Origin: Boletus sp. NGJ
Lineage: Eukaryota; Basidiomycota; Agaricomycetes; Boletales; Boletaceae
Reading direction: 5' to 3'
DNA: 64,000 bases
NCBI GenBank assembly: GCA_019096195.1
Contig: JAGTXK010000055.1
Location: 1,922,001 to 1,986,000, forward strand
In this document: piece after piece, positions 10,360-38,500 of the stretch
Numbering within the stretch: position 1 is the stretch's first letter
Layout of the letters: every line of letters begins with the position of its first letter
Made by a program: the position numbers and the translations under genes
The notes under the pieces: generated by a model
The model's database searches: none
What the model was told of the DNA's origin: nothing
The model's input: the letters and a program-made list of their open reading frames with translations, nothing else

Positions 10360-11374
10360 ATGCATACCAGCGAGTACGACTACCTTTTCAAGCTTCTCCT
10401 CATCGGCGACTCTGGTGTTGGAAAGGTTTGTTTTGCCCTGTAGCAAGCCATGTCAATTTGCTCAAACGGCATCTACCCCAGTCCTGTTTGCTTCTTCGGT
10501 TTGCAGATGATACATACACGGAGAGCTATATCAGTACCATTGGCGTAGATTTTAAGATTCGTACCATCGAGCTCGAGGGAAAGACTGTGAAGCTCCAGAT
10601 TGTGAGTCCTTCTCTCAGCTTTTTTTTGTCTCGGGGCTCGTTCGGTCGTTCCCCGTATGCTACAACATTATCCATGAGCCATCCGACTTGCAATTCCACA
10701 TCATGCCTCTCAGAATTTACTGACTCCGTTCTACGCGCGTTCCAGTGGGACACTGCCGGTAAGTCTTTCTAGCCCGCTACACACTCTTGCTTACAACTGT
10801 GAAATAGGTCAGGAACGTTTCCGCACGATCACATCATCCTACTACAGAGGTGCTCATGGCATCATCGTCGTTTACGATGTCACGGACAATGGTGAGACTT
10901 GATCGTCTCTGTTCAGTGATGGGTACTAACCGGATCCCATAGACACTTTCACGAATGTCAAGCAATGGCTTCAGGAAATTGACCGATACGCGTCGGAAGG
11001 TGTTAACAAGCTGTTGGTAGGGAACAAGTCTGACCTTACAAGCAAGAAAGTGGTCGAGTACAGCGTGGCAAAGGTAATCGGCTCTTGTGTCATATGCCCC
11101 TGCCCGCCCTTATCTTTGTTTCAGGAATTTGCCGATCAACTGACCATCCCTTTCTTGGAGACCTCGGCCAAGAATTCAACGAACGTGGAACAAGCGTTCT
11201 TGACCATGGCCAAGCAGATCAAAGATAGGTAGGTGATCCCGCAACGCATCATGACGAGATACCGAAAGTTCTTGCAGAATGGGATCCACGTCAACACCCG
11301 CCGGTGGCGCCAAGTCTTCGACCGTGACTCCTGGACAATCTGTACAGCAGCAGCAGTCCGGCGGATGCTGCTGA
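10360..11374 (+). CDS. YPT1: Rab1-type GTPase YPT1
   Basis: Ypt1/Rab1 controls ER-to-Golgi vesicle tethering and autophagy. The ATG at 10360 opens [20 protein letters not shown] with GK ending exon 1 at 10425. Exon 2 (from 10482) gives [20 protein letters not shown] and [20 protein letters not shown], the Rab1 effector region. Switch II is split: WDTAG is on a 13-nt exon (10746-10758) and [20 protein letters not shown] on the next. Then come [39 protein letters not shown] and a last exon with a Gln/Ser-rich linker ending SGGCC, the double-cysteine geranylgeranylation signal. The stop is at 11372-11374. All five G motifs are present. The BET4 gene, whose product prenylates such Rabs, is also in this window. 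Confidence 0.96.
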
Positions 11375-11808: not shown

Positions 11809-14800
11809 ATGTCTCGTCCCGGCGGCCCACCGCAAGGCGCACGGCGTCTTCAGGTCGTCACCAACTCGTTCAAGATCACTGGTCTTCCCAGGAAAGTGTA
11901 TTATCAGTATGACGGTCAGTTCCACTCGCACGTCCTTACCACGCGCCAATATTGATCATTCCAATCACTTCTTGGCGTGCAGTATGTGAGTACTGCAGTG
12001 TCGTCTGTCACGTTCACTCATGCGTGTTTTCCAGCATTCGGGGACGAAAAGGTGTCAAAGGATTCGCGTCGGCGCATCGAGGTCATCGAGAGACTTCAAA
12101 ACCACACCCAACCGGGCCTTTTCAGTCCCAAGGTCATCTATGACAGCGATGCGATCGCGTACTCTTCCGCTGTGCTCTCCTTTGGAAATGCAGCTACGGT
12201 AACTCGGTCAATGAGTCACACGGAACGTGTACGTACTGACCACGCAACCTGACAGTTTGATGTCAACATGACGGACCGTCCCCCTAGAGAGGGCGCCCCG
12301 GGTCAAATGCGCGGTGTCATCCAGGTTGCGTTGAAGCGCGTCGACGCGGCCCCTATCACATTTGAGTAAGCAAGGCTTTCATACAACTAGCTATTCATTC
12401 ATGTCGTGTCAGAGATCTCCAACAGCTCGTCGATGGCCGCACGGCGCAGCTCAGCCCTCGCGCAGCTGTCGCAATAAATTTGATTCAACTCATCGTGCGT
12501 CAGGGCCCAAATCTGTGAGTCTTCCCCCGAATCGGACGCACGTTCAAATTGCTGATGTTCACCATCGTCTAGCAAATACCCCAACAACGTGAAAGCTTTC
12601 TTCTGTCGAGAGGCCGGCAGCAGGGCTCTCGGGGGTGGCCTTGAGATTTTGAAAGGGTATTACCAGTAAGTCTATCTCTGAATTTCGATGATGAACACGG
12701 GCGCTGATCGCCATGGGTGCGTAGGAGTGTTCGCCCCACGCTCCGAACGCTTCTGGTAAACATCGACACGTCGTGCGGCATCATGTAAGCCCCTTCCACG
12801 ATCCCAGAAGCTTGCTGATCGCCTGCTCCAGCTACCAAGAAGGTCCCATGCCCGAGGTTGCTCTTGGTTTCTTGGGGACAACTCACCCCCGTGCACTCAA
12901 CTTGAACGAAGGACCCGAGCTTTCGAAGCTCAGGAAATTTTTCAAAGGCATTTTCATCACGTTTACGCACCGGAAGGGCAAGAAGAAGATCGAGTCGATC
13001 GTCCCTCGCGGTGGATTCGAACAATTTGAATGGAATAAAGACAAGTCCGAAGGCGTCGTGCAGAGCACGACAGTTCAGGTACATTCCACGTCGTATCTGT
13101 TTCTTTGCATTCATTGATTATTGTGAATAGGCGTATTTCAGAGAAGCATACAATATTACGCTCAGGTATCCGGACGCCGTTGGTGTCAGGATTGGAGGCG
13201 GTAGCATAGTACCCATCGAATTATGCGTCGTCGCGCCCAATCAGCGATTTACTCGTAGGTTGCCGCCTGAATTGACCAAGAAGATGGTCGAATTCACTTC
13301 TGACAAACCCAAGGCCCGGCTTGATGCCATCCGCCGCGGAGTTGCAGGAGCGGTAAGCAATGATGTTAGACATGTCGTTCCTCCCTAATTCCTGGATGTT
13401 TCTGCGAGGCCTTGGACTATGCCTCGTCACCTTACGTGAGAGATGCCGGGTTGCAGGTGTCTACGACGCCGACTATCATTGACGGCAAGGTTCTTCCCAC
13501 TCCCCCCATGAAGTACAATGGTCCCGTGCCAATGGTGTTTTTTTTTTTTTTTCAAAAACGAATGTCGTTGCTTATTGTACTTCAGACCCCAAAGTTTGGA
13601 GCTTGGAATGTTGTGAATCAGCAGTTCAAAGAACCCAAAAACATCAGTTCCTGGGCAGTTGTTGATTACAGTCCCAATCCTTCCAGGGATAGGCCTGCAA
13701 ATGAGAGGTTCGTGAGGATGATTGCAGAAAATTGCCAGAAGCTAGGTATATGAAATTCAATGTTTACTGTCCTCCATATCTCATCACTCGATCTTGCTAG
13801 GGATGTGTAAGTTCTCTCAGTTTTGCTGCAGGTAGGCATGTCTTGAATTCTAGAAGCAATCGCTCCTCTCCAGGTCTACATCAATGGCAATGGTGGCAAT
13901 GTAACTCAAGTCGGTATTTGCCTATTTAAGACTATTATTATGGCTCATGTGTTACATATATAGGATTTAATGCAGGCTGCTCGACAAGCCACTGCTAGCA
14001 ATAATGCTCCCCAGCCTGACATGATCTTGGTCATTCTTCCACCATCTGCCCCGGAAATTCGATTCCAAGTGAAGCGTCATGGGGATGTTCAGGAAGGGGT
14101 ACGTGATTCAATGTCTCGCATTTAGGAATGTCAATGAATCTCTTATAGGTTATCACACAATGTGTTGTAAGTCTAGGCATTGTAGTTACTCATTCGGATT
14201 CCCTTGACTCTGTTCAGCGTGTGGACAAGGTTTCTCGGGCCAACGACCAGTACTGCAACAATGTGGCTATGAAGTAAGTATCGAGTTTTTCTCCTTCAAC
14301 AAGTCTCTAATATTCCTATCCGAAGGATCAATGCAAAACTGGGTGGTGTCAATGCAGTACCCCAGTCCAAGGTACTGATGGATCTCGCTCGACGACCCTT
14401 CATCATCATGGGTGACTTGAAACTTTCAGCCTTGAGTATTGAAAAAATAGCTGACTGAAAACAGGGGCTGATGTGGGTCACCCAGCACCGGGTGTGAATG
14501 ACCAACCTTCTGTTGCTGCCCTTGTGGCTTCTTATGACTGCCAAGCGATGAAATATAACGCCTACACGACCATTCAGCCACCACGATTGGAGACAATAGA
14601 TCAGCTGCAATACATGGTGCAAGTGAGTGTGTCTCCAACTTCTCCAGACGAGTTTGACGGAAATCACCGAATTGCCGATCAGAGGGCACTCGATGACTTT
14701 GGCAAAGAGAATCGCGCTGGCGCCGAAAGACTTGTCTTTTTCCGTGATGGGCTGTCCGAGGGCGAATATGTAAAGGTTGCAGAGAAGGAGATCCAGGACA

Positions 14801-15694
14801 TTAAAGGTTGGTTCCACCTCGTGCTCAAAGTATGCTTAATCAATTCCTTGCCAAGCTGCCGTTGACGAGGTTTGGAGAGTGAGAAAGCCACGCGAGTCGA
14901 AGCCCACTGTGACTTTTATCGTCGTCGGCAAACGGTCAGTATTTTAATCTTTGCGTCCGAGTCGTCTGAATGCATGTTTTCCAGTCACCACGTTCGGTTC
15001 TTCCCACAAAACGAGTAAGTTACCATATGAGCTTTGTTTCGCGTTGAAATCACGGTCGTGTAGGCGGGATGCAGACAGATCTGGGAACTGCCCGGCAGGA
15101 TTCGTAGCTGACCAGGGCATCGGAAACCCCATCGCCAAGGATTACTACCTGCAATCCCATGGCGGTTTGTTGGGAAGTAAGTGACTTGCCAGTAAATTTT
15201 TGTGTGCGTTCCGCATCTGTGATCACCTTCCAGCCAGCAGGCCTTCCCACTATATTGTCATCCAGGACGAAAACTTTTTGAACAACATAGACAGGTGAGT
15301 TCTAACAAGGGAGATAGACGTGGTGACCGAATTTCGCTCTAGTTTGCAGGAACTCTCCTTTGCCTTGTGCCATTCGTATGCTCGAGCAACCCGGTCCGTC
15401 TCCATTCCCGCACCCGTGTATTGTAAGTGAGCCTGGAAAGTGATGTTGATCCGTACTCACCTTTGATGATCCCCTAGATGCTGATGTATGTGAATTCAAT
15501 GGGGGCGTTCCAGTGCGCTGACTTTGAAACAGCTTGTTTGCGGTCGTGCGAGCTTTCACTTCCCCCCTGAGCTCAAGTACGATGATAGTTCTGCGTCGGT
15601 CACATCTGGTAAAAGCAGCTTCGACCTCGAACGATGGAAATCTGGCTTCCAGGGAGCCCACAAGAACATGTTGAAGAAGATGTTTTATATGTGA
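11809..15694 (+). CDS. AGO: Argonaute, with intact slicer tetrad
   Basis: Argonaute binds small RNAs and silences matching transcripts (quelling or meiotic silencing in fungi). The ATG at 11809 opens MSRPGGPPQGARRLQVVTNS. The N domain follows (GLPRKVYYQYD; FGDEKVSKDSRRRIEVIERL). Linker 1 has SVRPTLRTLLVNIDTSCGIM. The PAZ region runs about 13130-13350 (AYFREAYNITLRYPDAVGVR, VVAPNQRFTRRLPPELTKKM), the MID region about 13590-14240 (TPKFGAWNVVNQQFKEPKN, MILVILPP), and PIWI to the end. The slicer residues are visible as D in GADVGHP (14470-14472), E in RLETIDQL (14590-14592), D in FFRDGLSEGEY (14746-14748) and D in YYADLV (15483-15485), a DEDD set. There are at least 15 introns, among them two flanking an 8-nt exon and one with a run of about 14 T near 13540. 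The stop is at 15692-15694, 24 bp from the converging PDX1 stop. Confidence 0.95.
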
Positions 15695-15718: not shown

Positions 15719-17315
15719 TTACCACCCCCTTTCCGCAAGTCGTCCGCCTTTGATGTTGGCATCACTGTACAATGTAGTGAAAAATGTAGTATGCGTTGCT
15801 TGGCAATATGTGGGACTCACATTGTGAGACCAACCATGGCCTTGCCAAGATTCTCCGAGACCTGTGGAGAACGTGTCAAGTTTTGTCGATCTGTCTTGTC
15901 CATGTTCCATACCTCTGCAAGAAGTTTTGGATTGTTGTAGTGTGTGACCTGGGGTTTCGGGGTCAGCAGGTATGGTGCGTGGAAATGCGGAAAGCGTACA
16001 GCTTGGACGATAGCCCTCGCTCTCTTTGCTGGGTCGCCAGACTTGGATGATGGAGCCGATTAGCTAGGTTTCAGGCGGAACGAGGAACGAAGGACATACG
16101 CGGAAAATACCGGATCCGACGAACACTTTGATAGACCTCATTAGTACTGTATGCGACGTCCTTGTCAGCGAAGCCTCCACTTGCCTCCGTCACAGCCGAG
16201 CTGCATCATAAGCGCAGCGTCCGCTGTCAAAAGGCCTCAGATAGATTCAGATACCCGTGGGTGGCCGTGTACATACCGGGGGTTGCGATACCGCCAGCGG
16301 CAAAGTTGACGACGGGGAGCCGCTTCAGGCGAGCAGCCTCCTTTAATAGATGGAATGGGGCTTGTATGTCCTTTGCGTAGGCATAGAGTTCCTCTTCGTT
16401 CATGACGCTTGCCTTGCGAATGTCGCTTGTGACGGTGCGCTGGTGACGCACGGCTTCGACGACGTTGCCCGTGCCAGCCTCACCCTTTGTCCTGATGAAC
16501 GCAGCGCCCTCGGAGATACGCCGTAATGCCTCGCCTAAGTTGCGGGCGCCACAGACGAACGGAATTTTGAAGCTGTGTTTGTTGATGTGGTGTTCTTCGT
16601 CCGCGGGTGTCAAGACCTCCGATTCGTCGATATAGTCGACACCGACTGCTTGAAGGATCTATGTCCGAGGGTTGCAAAGATGAGACATGAACGCGAGTGG
16701 ACGGATGTGAGTCGGCACCTGGGCTTCGACAAAGTGGCCGATGCGAACTTTTGCCATGACGGGGATGGTGACGGCGCTGATGATGTCCTTGATCATCGCG
16801 GGGTCGCTCTGCGATGTGGGTGAGGTGGGCGGACACGGACGCGGATGACACGTGACGTTATATACCATTCGCGAGACACCCCCTTCTGCTCTGATATCGG
16901 CGGGAACGCGCTCGAGTGCCATGACGGCGCAGGCACCTGCCTCTTCTGCGATGCGAGCCTAGGGGTGGTAGGTGGACGAGTATGTGGTAGTGGAGTCACG
17001 GAACGTTACCTGCTCGGCATTGACGACGTCCATGATGACGCCTCCCTGGCAGATGAGCCAGTTGTGGACCAAGCGTCACGTAGAGGTTTGCACGCACCTT
17101 GAGCATCTGTGCCAAACCAGACTTGACCTATGGAACGTGAGGAGGGTGCACGAGGAAGACGGATGGATACGTACTCCAAAAGTACCTAGGCTGGTGTTTC
17201 CGCCATCACGCTGGGTGGAGCGGGCGGGTGCGGGTGCGGGTGCGGGTGCTGATGTGGGACCAGGGGTTGTACCGAGTGGGGGTGCAGAAGGGGTCGGGAG
17301 CACAGGGGCGGCCAT
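15719..17315 (-). CDS. PDX1: Pyridoxal 5'-phosphate synthase PDX1/SNZ (PdxS subunit)
   Basis: PdxS condenses ribose 5-phosphate, glyceraldehyde 3-phosphate and PdxT-derived ammonia to pyridoxal phosphate. The ATG at 17315 opens [15 protein letters not shown] and a Pro/Ala repeat (from a GGGTGC repeat at 17222-17250), an extension many fungal SNZ proteins share. The barrel core reads [60 protein letters not shown] (first active-site Lys), [35 protein letters not shown] and [18 protein letters not shown] (second Lys). [14 protein letters not shown] follows. The C-terminus is GGRLAERGW, the usual PdxS end. Several introns are present. The PdxT partner is not in the window. Converges on Argonaute. 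Confidence 0.95.
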
Positions 17316-21645: not shown

Positions 21646-21726
21646 CTCTCTGGCGGGGAGTCGAACCCCGCTCTCCCGCGACCATCGTATGACAGGCGGG
21701 TGTACTATCCGATATACTACCAGAGA
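21646..21726 (-). tRNA. tRNA-Asp (GTC) with a 9-nt intron
   Basis: The 81-nt gene folds into a full cloverleaf. Acceptor stem TCTCTGG pairs with CCAGAGA, with discriminator G73. The D stem is GTAT/GTAC. Anticodon stem CCCGC pairs with GCGGG, and the T arm is CGGGG-TTCGACT-CCCCG. The loop reads CTGTCA before the break, giving anticodon GTC. Nine bases (21681-21689 on the plus strand) must be removed after position 37, where eukaryotic tRNA introns lie, to close a seven-base loop. A box and B box are internal. CCA is not encoded. Confidence 0.95.
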
Positions 21727-35368: not shown

Positions 35369-35510
35369 GATCCAACACTCGCAGTGGAACAGAACAGTCG
35401 AAGTTCTGATTAGCTGTGATTGGGAGATAAGCCACTTATCCGTAAACCCATAAATAAATATTGAATGATAATTCCTGTCGATTGGCGCGACGGTTGAACC
35501 AGGCTCCAAA
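35369..35510. promoter_or_regulatory. Bidirectional promoter of BET4 and SYF1
   Basis: The 142-bp spacer separates two divergent starts. An A/T-rich block (ATAAATAAATATTGAAT, 35450-35466) lies about 50 bp upstream of the SYF1 ATG. Shared control is inferred from spacing only. Confidence 0.45.
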
Positions 35511-38500
35511 ATGCCTTCCGTCGCTGAAAAGTTGTCCAAGCTGGAGAGTCTCTCTGCTCACTTTCCTTTGACGCTGCCGGTCCCGACACCAACGACACAC
35601 TCACACCTGCTCACCGTCCAGGACATCCACCGCGAAGAAGACCTACTCCGAAATCCATCGTCTTTCCGGGCATGGCGGACGGCCATACAAAACACCAGGG
35701 ACGCGTTCAACGCGCTGCTCAAGGAAGAACGGCGCACAAACCCTTCGCTTGACGAAGGCGCCCAACTACTCGGGCCGCTCTCGACTCCGCTTGCGAGACG
35801 GTCCTTGCAATGTCTGACCTACATCTACGAAGCTGCCCTCGTCCAGTTCCCGGGATCTTTCAAGCTGTGGAAGCCATATCTGCAGATGAGGATGTCATAC
35901 GTCCTTGGCAAACTGGTGCACAAGAAACAAGCGGGAGGGAGGAAAAAGTTCCCTGAGATGAAGGAAGCATTGGAGGAGGAGCGGGAAAGCTTGGAAGAGT
36001 GGGAAGGTGGGCTCGATGGTATCGTCGGATGGGAGGAATGGAAGGCTCTCGTTGCAACGTATGAGCGCGCCTTGATGTGGTTGCCCAAGGTAGCTCGTCC
36101 GCCCGACCCGTCGTTCAGTTGCGCTAATACATTGTTTAGCTTCCGCGCCTCTGGCTCATGTATTTCTCTCTCTTCTTCCATCCAATGTGTCCTCCCGTGG
36201 TTTCGCATACCCATGCTCGGCGGACGTTCGATCGTGCATTGCGCACATTGCCACCATCCTTACATTCCCGTATCTGGATCAGATATCTACTTTGGGCTGA
36301 AGGTCGAGGTGGTACTACCACCGTCTCGGTATATCGCCGTTATCTTGCCGTAGACCCAAGCTTGACCGAGCACTACGCCTCCATCCTCCTTTCCCCCGCC
36401 GACTCTGAACCGAGACCCTTAGAGGCCGCGAAGCTTCTGCTATCCTTGGCAAGGAAAGCAGCACGAGGTGGATATGTCAGCCCAGAGGGCAAAAGTCCAT
36501 ATCAACTACTCGGAGATTTCATTGACGTCGTTGAGCGTTTCTCCGACGAGGTTGGCCTCGATGTCCCCGACACCATACAATCAAACGAGGCAAATGCTAA
36601 AGCCGATGCTGAAGCAGAAGCTCAGCACATTCGTACCCAGGAACCTGCTTCAGCTGACGGCCAGCTCATTCGCGTAGCAGGTCCAGCGAGGCCCGTCTCA
36701 GCAGACGGGAAGGTACTCCCAGCTTATGACGAGGACGAAGATCCCCTTAGCAAGCGGAGGTTGAATATAGAGCGCATAATCCACAAGGATGGTCTTGTGG
36801 TCTACAAGGACCAAGCTGGCCGGCTATGGAGTGGGATCGCGACCTATTGGATCAAGCGTGGCGAATTCGATCGTGCAAACAGCACTTTCGAAACTGGTAT
36901 CGCGTCGGTTCTTACTGTCAGGGACTTTACCCAGGTCTTCGACGCGTATGTGCAGTTCACCGAGTCACTTCTCAGCGCAATAATGGCGAGCTTGGAGGAA
37001 CCGGATGAAGAAGAGGAAGAGGAAGACGCAAAGGAGACCGAGCGCGAGCTGGATACCAAAATGAAGGAATTTGAAGCGTTGATGGATCGAAGACCATTCC
37101 TTCTCAACGATGTCCTTTTGAGGCGAAATCCAAATGACGTGCAAGAATGGGAAAAGAGGGTGGCATTATGGGGTGGAGATGACGAGCGGGTACGATGTAA
37201 TCGATCTTCCCTTGAATCCACTGACACCAATAAATTATTAGGTGGCTGAAACCTACACAAAAGCACTGGAGACTATCCAACCTCGTAAAGCTACCGCTAA
37301 CTTCCACCGCCTCTATATCAATTTTGCAAGGTTCTACGAGGAAGGAGGTGTCTCTGGCGCAGCCGAGCCTGATCTCGATAGCGCTCGCAAAATCCTCGAG
37401 AAGGCAACGAAGGTTAACTTCAAGAACGTCGAAGACCTTGCCGAGATTTGGTGCGAATGGTCAGAGATGGAACTTCGTCATGAGTGAGACCTTACTTGAC
37501 TGACATACTCGAACCGTACTGACAATACGTAGAAACTACGATGAAGCTATCCGTGTTATGCAACGAGCAGCCGCCATCCCAAAGAACATAAAAATCAATT
37601 ACCACGATCACGTATGTCAACCTTAACTACCCATCCACAGTACTGACTGGTCCTCTTAGTCACTCGTTGTCCAAACGCGACTATTCAAGTCGTTGAAACT
37701 TTGGTCATTCTATGTTGATCTGGAAGAGTCGATAGGCACTGTCGAATCAACCAAGGCAGTTTACGAGAAAATTATGGACCTCAAGATTGCGAATGCCCAG
37801 ATCATAGTCAACTACGCCGCTTTCTTAGAGGAGAACCAATATTGGGAGGACAGCTTCAAAGTGAGTCGTTATCCATGATACCTTTCCTGCAATAACCTTG
37901 ACTGGCAGATATACGAACGCGGGACGGAGCTTTTCACGTTCCCTATTTCCTTCGAAATTTGGAATATTTATCTGTCCAAATTCGTGAAACGATATGTGCG
38001 TCGACCCAGTAACTGCTTTCGAACAAACCCTGACCCTTTCCCAGGGGGGCTCAAAGCTGGAGCGGGCGCGAGACCTCTTTGAGCAGGCACTTGAGAAATG
38101 TCCACCGAAGGCCTGCAAGCCATTGTTCCTCATGTATGGCAAGCTCGAGGAAGATCATGGCTTAGCGAAGCGCGCTATGTCCATCTACGAGCGAGCCACG
38201 CAAGTCGTTGCCAGTGAAGACAAGCTCGAGGTATGCGCGTTTTTTGTCAGGGTGACGATCTTTGAATGTTAAACGACAACAGATGTTTACTGTATACATT
38301 GCCAAGGCTACGGCGAACTATGGCCTGCCAGCAACGCGACCCATATATGAACGGGCACTGGAGGTTCTACCGGACAAGCAAACCGCAGATATCTGCCTGC
38401 GGTTCGCTGCCCTCGAGCGCAAGCTTGGGGAAATCGACCGCGCTCGTGCCATCTTTGCTCATGCCTCACAATTCTGCGACCCACGGGTTAACCCCAAATT

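Follow-up and report, generated by a model that had tools for sequence, protein, structure and literature searches.

Background

Work by Romfo et al. 2000 on Schizosaccharomyces pombe, a fungus with intron definition, is said to have tested by mutation a microexon of the cgs2 gene, a small exon lying between short introns. The exon with which we are concerned here resembles it in being small and placed between short introns, and differs in being predicted. Tiny exons have also been described in basidiomycete P450 genes. According to the available sections of PMC1184071, the P450ome of Phanerochaete chrysosporium contains microexons encoding 2–10 amino acids, the shortest of 6 bp, with introns often of 45–55 bp, a combination of tiny exons and short introns that is also seen in the Argonaute gene of Boletus described below; those, however, are P450 genes, for which the same source proposes alternative splicing, whereas our window shows no sign of any. 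Equal in length is an exon of CYP5141A1 of this white-rot fungus, where the available text of PMC12940212 places an 8-nt micro-exon in the highly conserved I-helix motif of the P450; length and location in a conserved enzyme motif are shared with the Argonaute exon, while the protein family is different. The same excerpt describes in CYP621A of Fusarium a 1-nt exon, supported by sequence reads and found in 20 orthologues according to the abstract or 24 genes according to the Discussion, which likewise restores the frame within a conserved motif but belongs to an ascomycete, consists of one base and is shared among orthologues (PMC12940212). In Xlr2 of Trichoderma virens, the use of a microexon differs with and without glucose, as reported in the part of PMC11121469 at hand, and decides which protein is made; this too is a fungal microexon, with regulation reported there, whereas no sequence feature suggestive of regulation was seen for the 8-nt exon of the Argonaute gene.

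A literature search on Argonautes with microexons and on Argonaute gene structure, judged by titles and the openings of abstracts, found no Argonaute microexon, which does not prove absence from print; the available sections of PMC8022950 describe none. The 8-nt exon presented here is a fresh case of a fungal microexon, of a size already in print, and its special feature is that it bears the residue at a catalytic position of a predicted RNAi slicer.

Results

The window, that is, the whole stretch of 64,000 nucleotides analysed from a contig of Boletus sp. NGJ, contains a complete Argonaute gene on the forward strand (11809-15694), modelled from sequence and homology with 26 predicted exons that encode 853 amino acids. 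All 25 predicted introns are GT-AG and measure 47–68 nt (mean 53). Gene density, gene content and the shortness of the introns point to fungal, probably basidiomycete, DNA. The gene is flanked by a Rab1/YPT1-like gene on one side and a PDX1-like pyridoxal synthase gene on the other (Table 1). The protein search against solved structures and a first Pfam search were run with an early gene model, which included a later-dropped 11-nt exon. With this model, the best solved relative in a phmmer search was human AGO2 (PDB 4OLA and others; E-value 2.2e-116), with a match that spans residues 11-848 of the query, nearly its whole length. The Pfam models ArgoN, ArgoL1, PAZ, ArgoL2, ArgoMid and Piwi follow one another in this order along the protein, giving the N, PAZ, MID and PIWI domains of a eukaryotic Argonaute; two of the six scored below their cut-offs with the first gene model, ArgoL2 (32.4 vs 33.3) and ArgoMid (24.7 vs 27.5).

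The gene model was compared with a spliced alignment that used human AGO2 as the sole reference and generic splice weights of our choosing. The two agree on the predicted exons of 3, 18 and 8 nt, and the exon of 6 nt was introduced by the alignment. The last exon receives the identical start base and an end at 15688. Boundaries in parts of exons 3-5, 13, 19 and 20 and at both ends of the gene are less certain because the spliced alignment placed them differently from the gene model. A run of 15 T (13538-13552) lies just inside an intron of the Argonaute gene, at a weak donor, GTGTTT (13535).

Table 1. Positions in the window of the modelled genes, small exons, slicer positions and exon–intron structure around the 8-nt exon
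Feature	Position	Strand	Description
Rab1/YPT1-like gene	from 10360	+	adjoins the Argonaute gene
13-nt exon, Rab1/YPT1-like gene	10746-10758	+	codes for WDTA plus the initial base of the following G codon
Argonaute exon 2	11983-11985	+	predicted, 3 nt (TAT); N domain; flanking introns of 68 and 49 nt; frame kept on skipping
Argonaute exon 12	13801-13806	+	predicted, 6 nt (GGATGT); MID region; restores LGM segment; frame kept on skipping
Argonaute exon 15	14149-14166	+	predicted, 18 nt (VITQCV); frame kept on skipping
First slicer D, D585	14470-14472	+	GADVGHP, aligned with AGO2 GADVTHP
Slicer E, E625	14590-14592	+	RLETIDQL, aligned with AGO2 RQEIIQDL
Slicer D, D657	14746-14748	+	FFRDGLSEG, aligned with AGO2 FYRDGVSEG
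Argonaute exon 24	15343-15422	+	80 nt; ends IPAPVY + T; sequence end CCCGTGTATT
Argonaute intron 24	15423-15477	+	55 nt; GTAAGT...CCCCTAG; branch-like CTCAC 18 nt from acceptor
Argonaute exon 25	15478-15485	+	predicted, 8 nt; ATGCTGAT
Fourth-position D, D800	15483-15485	+	last three bases of exon 25; aligned with AGO2 H
Argonaute intron 25	15486-15532	+	47 nt; GTATGT...AAACAG; branch-like CTGAC 11 nt from acceptor
Argonaute exon 26	15533-15694	+	162 nt; begins CTTGTTTGCGG; LVCGRA... to stop
PDX1-like pyridoxal synthase gene	17315 down to at least 16279	-	
Small exons, PDX1-like gene	17098-17127, 17010-17045	-	30 nt and 36 nt

In human AGO2, the residues D, E, D and H, with H in the fourth place, are those of the slicer. 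Aspartate is the fourth slicer residue in other Argonautes. In the alignment to AGO2, all four positions of the D-E-D-[D/H] set are filled in the predicted protein (D585, E625, D657 and D800), as in a slicer-type Argonaute: the first three are identical in the two proteins, and the fourth is H in AGO2 but D in Boletus. Slicing activity would be expected from these residues.

The fourth of them is encoded by exon 25, the 8-nt exon, which supplies the second and third bases of a Y codon followed by A and D. Joined, exons 24, 25 and 26 read V-Y-Y-A-D-L-V-C-G-R-A, a segment that phmmer pairs with 'apayyahlvafra' of AGO2, the D standing opposite the H. With canonical sites on both sides and restoration of the frame, this predicted exon has the properties of a fungal microexon (at most 30 nt). 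The two introns around it measure roughly 50 nt, as is usual for this gene, and their splice sites score inside the range of the other introns under a matrix built from the larger-exon introns of the first gene model, the introns beside its tiny exons being omitted. Skipping breaks the frame, with a computed stop after residue 809 instead of the full length of 853. An initial annotation of this DNA had proposed the exon together with its donors and acceptors, its letters and its reading, had placed the D of the fourth slicer position in it and had predicted loss of frame on skipping, and all of this was borne out. It had also held that recognition of both flanking introns would be needed, with which the structure agrees; recursive splicing, its other suggestion, is unnecessary because introns 24 and 25 are each equipped with a donor, a branch-like motif and an acceptor.

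To compare ways of splicing this region, we scored 466 paths, of which 66 contain a single intron, 399 contain two and one is unspliced, with GT-AG introns of 35–140 nt and the C-terminus of AGO2 as reference. The path through the 8-nt exon ranks first with a score of 156, the runner-up reaching 136. The spliced alignment to human AGO2 picks exactly the same eight bases unaided, and it loses 35.6 of 923.7 points when the acceptor of exon 25 is removed in silico. With exon 25, the Pfam Piwi model scores 268.1 bits over profile positions 1-298 of 302, compared with 255.4 bits over positions 1-288 for the frameshifted product of skipping, a protein that also bore the superseded 11-nt exon. The 110-nt span between exons 24 and 26 was further subjected to 20,000 dinucleotide shuffles, with the 6 bases at its start and the 3 at its end left in place. 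An equivalent exon, defined as one of 8 nt that has a YAG acceptor, a donor no weaker than the native one, flanking introns of 38 nt or more on both sides and the peptide [YF][ASGC][DH], appeared in none of them; any 8-nt exon with such sites was present in 0.035% of the shuffles and any frame-compatible exon of at most 30 nt in 0.225%. The predicted 8-nt exon is, as far as the genomic sequence tells, real.

The same gene has three further small predicted exons (Table 1), the skipping of any of which would keep the frame, as that of the 8-nt exon would not. The predicted 6-nt exon is well supported. Together with an exon at 13857-13909, it takes the place of an 11-nt exon proposed earlier (13821-13831), which was dropped because the spliced alignment chose the starts of the two replacement exons, because the replacement gives introns of usual size (55 and 50 nt) and because ArgoMid then scores 34.6 bits, compared with 26.1. 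For the 3-nt exon, the balance of the sequence evidence is in favour of a real exon, with weaker evidence than for the 8-nt exon. The gain in protein similarity is small (1.0 alignment point; ArgoN 58.2 vs 54.2 bits, a difference of 4.0 bits), and shuffling produces its internal pair of splice sites by chance in 0.025% of cases for a 3-nt exon and in 0.15% for any frame-compatible exon.

Very small exons recur across the three genes modelled, the Argonaute, YPT1-like and PDX1-like genes. In the YPT1-like gene, a 13-nt exon, preceded by an intron of 144 nt, encodes most of the WDTAG segment, the G3 motif of the GTPase.

Scans of viral contigs and a first scan of genome contigs found no relatives of the Argonaute, and no fungal relative of the gene was found among the viral and genome contigs scanned. 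A second scan of genome contigs returned one locus (L001, 1-4630), in a record titled Phycisphaerales MAG. It appears to encode an animal-like Argonaute with introns and probably represents eukaryotic contamination. Its YYAHL motif is unsplit, so the pair of introns around YYA[D/H]L is not universal.

Discussion

Very probably, the eight nucleotides form a true microexon that is included constitutively and belongs to an intact fungal Argonaute gene of the slicer type. From the genomic sequence we infer its inclusion in mRNA, its constitutive use, intron definition, the order of intron removal and its origin. Most likely, the splice sites would be paired across each short intron, that is, by intron definition, and the length of the exon would then matter little for its recognition. 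Intron-definition splicing depends on intron length rather than exon length, according to the available part of a review (PMC8624252). Introns 24 and 25 would be taken out singly, with the 8-nt exon kept as a rule, and probably one after the other, because 8 nt would hardly accommodate U2AF and U1 side by side. Failures of splicing would be expected mainly as intron retention. As to origin, the introns probably came to lie close together inside the conserved motif, which would afterwards have fixed the sequence of the microexon. In Cryptococcus, exon skipping and intron retention both occur, as the accessible portion of PMC3990503 reports, and this counts against constitutive inclusion.

Conditional skipping of the exon had been put forward in the initial annotation as a switch that would yield an 809-residue, slicer-dead Argonaute, a regulated use that we consider very unlikely, since no sequence sign of it was found and the splice sites of the exon score within the range of the other introns of the gene. 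The skipped form would read VYSCLRSCELSLPP up to a stop after residue 809, and this stop lies in the last exon, where junction-dependent NMD would not be expected to act; moreover, Trichoderma provides a reported regulated microexon, at least in the available part of the source (PMC11121469). The absence of the 56 C-terminal residues of the native protein would, however, remove part of the conserved PIWI core and probably destabilise the product. Skipping also requires an intron of 110 nt, exceeding all 25 of the Argonaute model, an argument from length that is weakened by the 144-nt intron of the YPT1-like gene. Similar stops follow from retention of either intron (799 residues with intron 24 retained and 811 with intron 25 retained, compared with 809 on skipping and 853 normally), and the early stops on skipping or retention are the ordinary consequence of splicing errors in a coding region and no sign of a switch. 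An in-frame alternative that bypasses the exon is a single 87-nt intron on the forward strand (15427-15513), with the donor GTGAGC at 15427, which would give a protein of 858 amino acids where VYCNALTLKQLVCG replaces VYYADLVCG and the fourth slicer residue is absent. Its frame is open to the native stop, it ranks sixth of the 466 paths by similarity (score 129), and under the gene-derived matrix its donor scores 8.1, above the 7.0 of the donor at 15423. We nevertheless regard its use as extremely improbable: the intron is longer than all 25 of the model, its acceptor is the weaker one (3.4 vs 5.9 with the same matrix), the branch-like CTCAC is 54 nt away from that acceptor, and an otherwise conserved motif would be disrupted. 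It is very improbable indeed that splicing sets slicing, in the sense that one gene, through changing use of the 8-nt exon or of the 87-nt intron, would make both a slicer and a guide-binding, non-cutting protein.

It is scarcely conceivable that the eight bases are a chance match in an assembly error or a decaying gene, with no functional exon behind them. Such a view could appeal to the single sequence and to an exon known here as a prediction from genomic DNA; it has against it a gene that is otherwise open over 26 predicted exons, with matches to six Pfam Argonaute models and all four slicer positions filled, as well as the absence of an equivalent exon from all 20,000 shuffles.

Contrary to the initial annotation, the small size of the 8-nt exon is no exception, in view of the predicted exons of 3, 6 and 18 nt in the same gene and the 13-nt exon in the next. 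Microexons inside conserved motifs have also been printed for other fungi, as far as the accessible sections of the papers cited above go. Exons of 3, 6 and 8 nt are easily overlooked by annotation software, and if the 8-nt exon is dropped, a complete slicer Argonaute would be miscalled as truncated or catalytically dead, a concern for studies that survey how fungi have lost RNAi. With its three predicted exons of at most 8 nt, the gene also makes a handy test of how spliceosomes adapted to short introns deal with adjacent splice sites. The 3-nt exon, if confirmed, would count as one of the smaller fungal exons proposed, an exon of 1 nt being already in print.

Elsewhere in the window, Rfam gave no matches and ARAGORN a single doubtful tRNA (21646-21726). 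Open reading frames that match the splicing factor Syf1 through Pfam HAT_Syf1 models lie at 35472-37246, some 20 kb away from the Argonaute gene, a proximity that is probably a coincidence.
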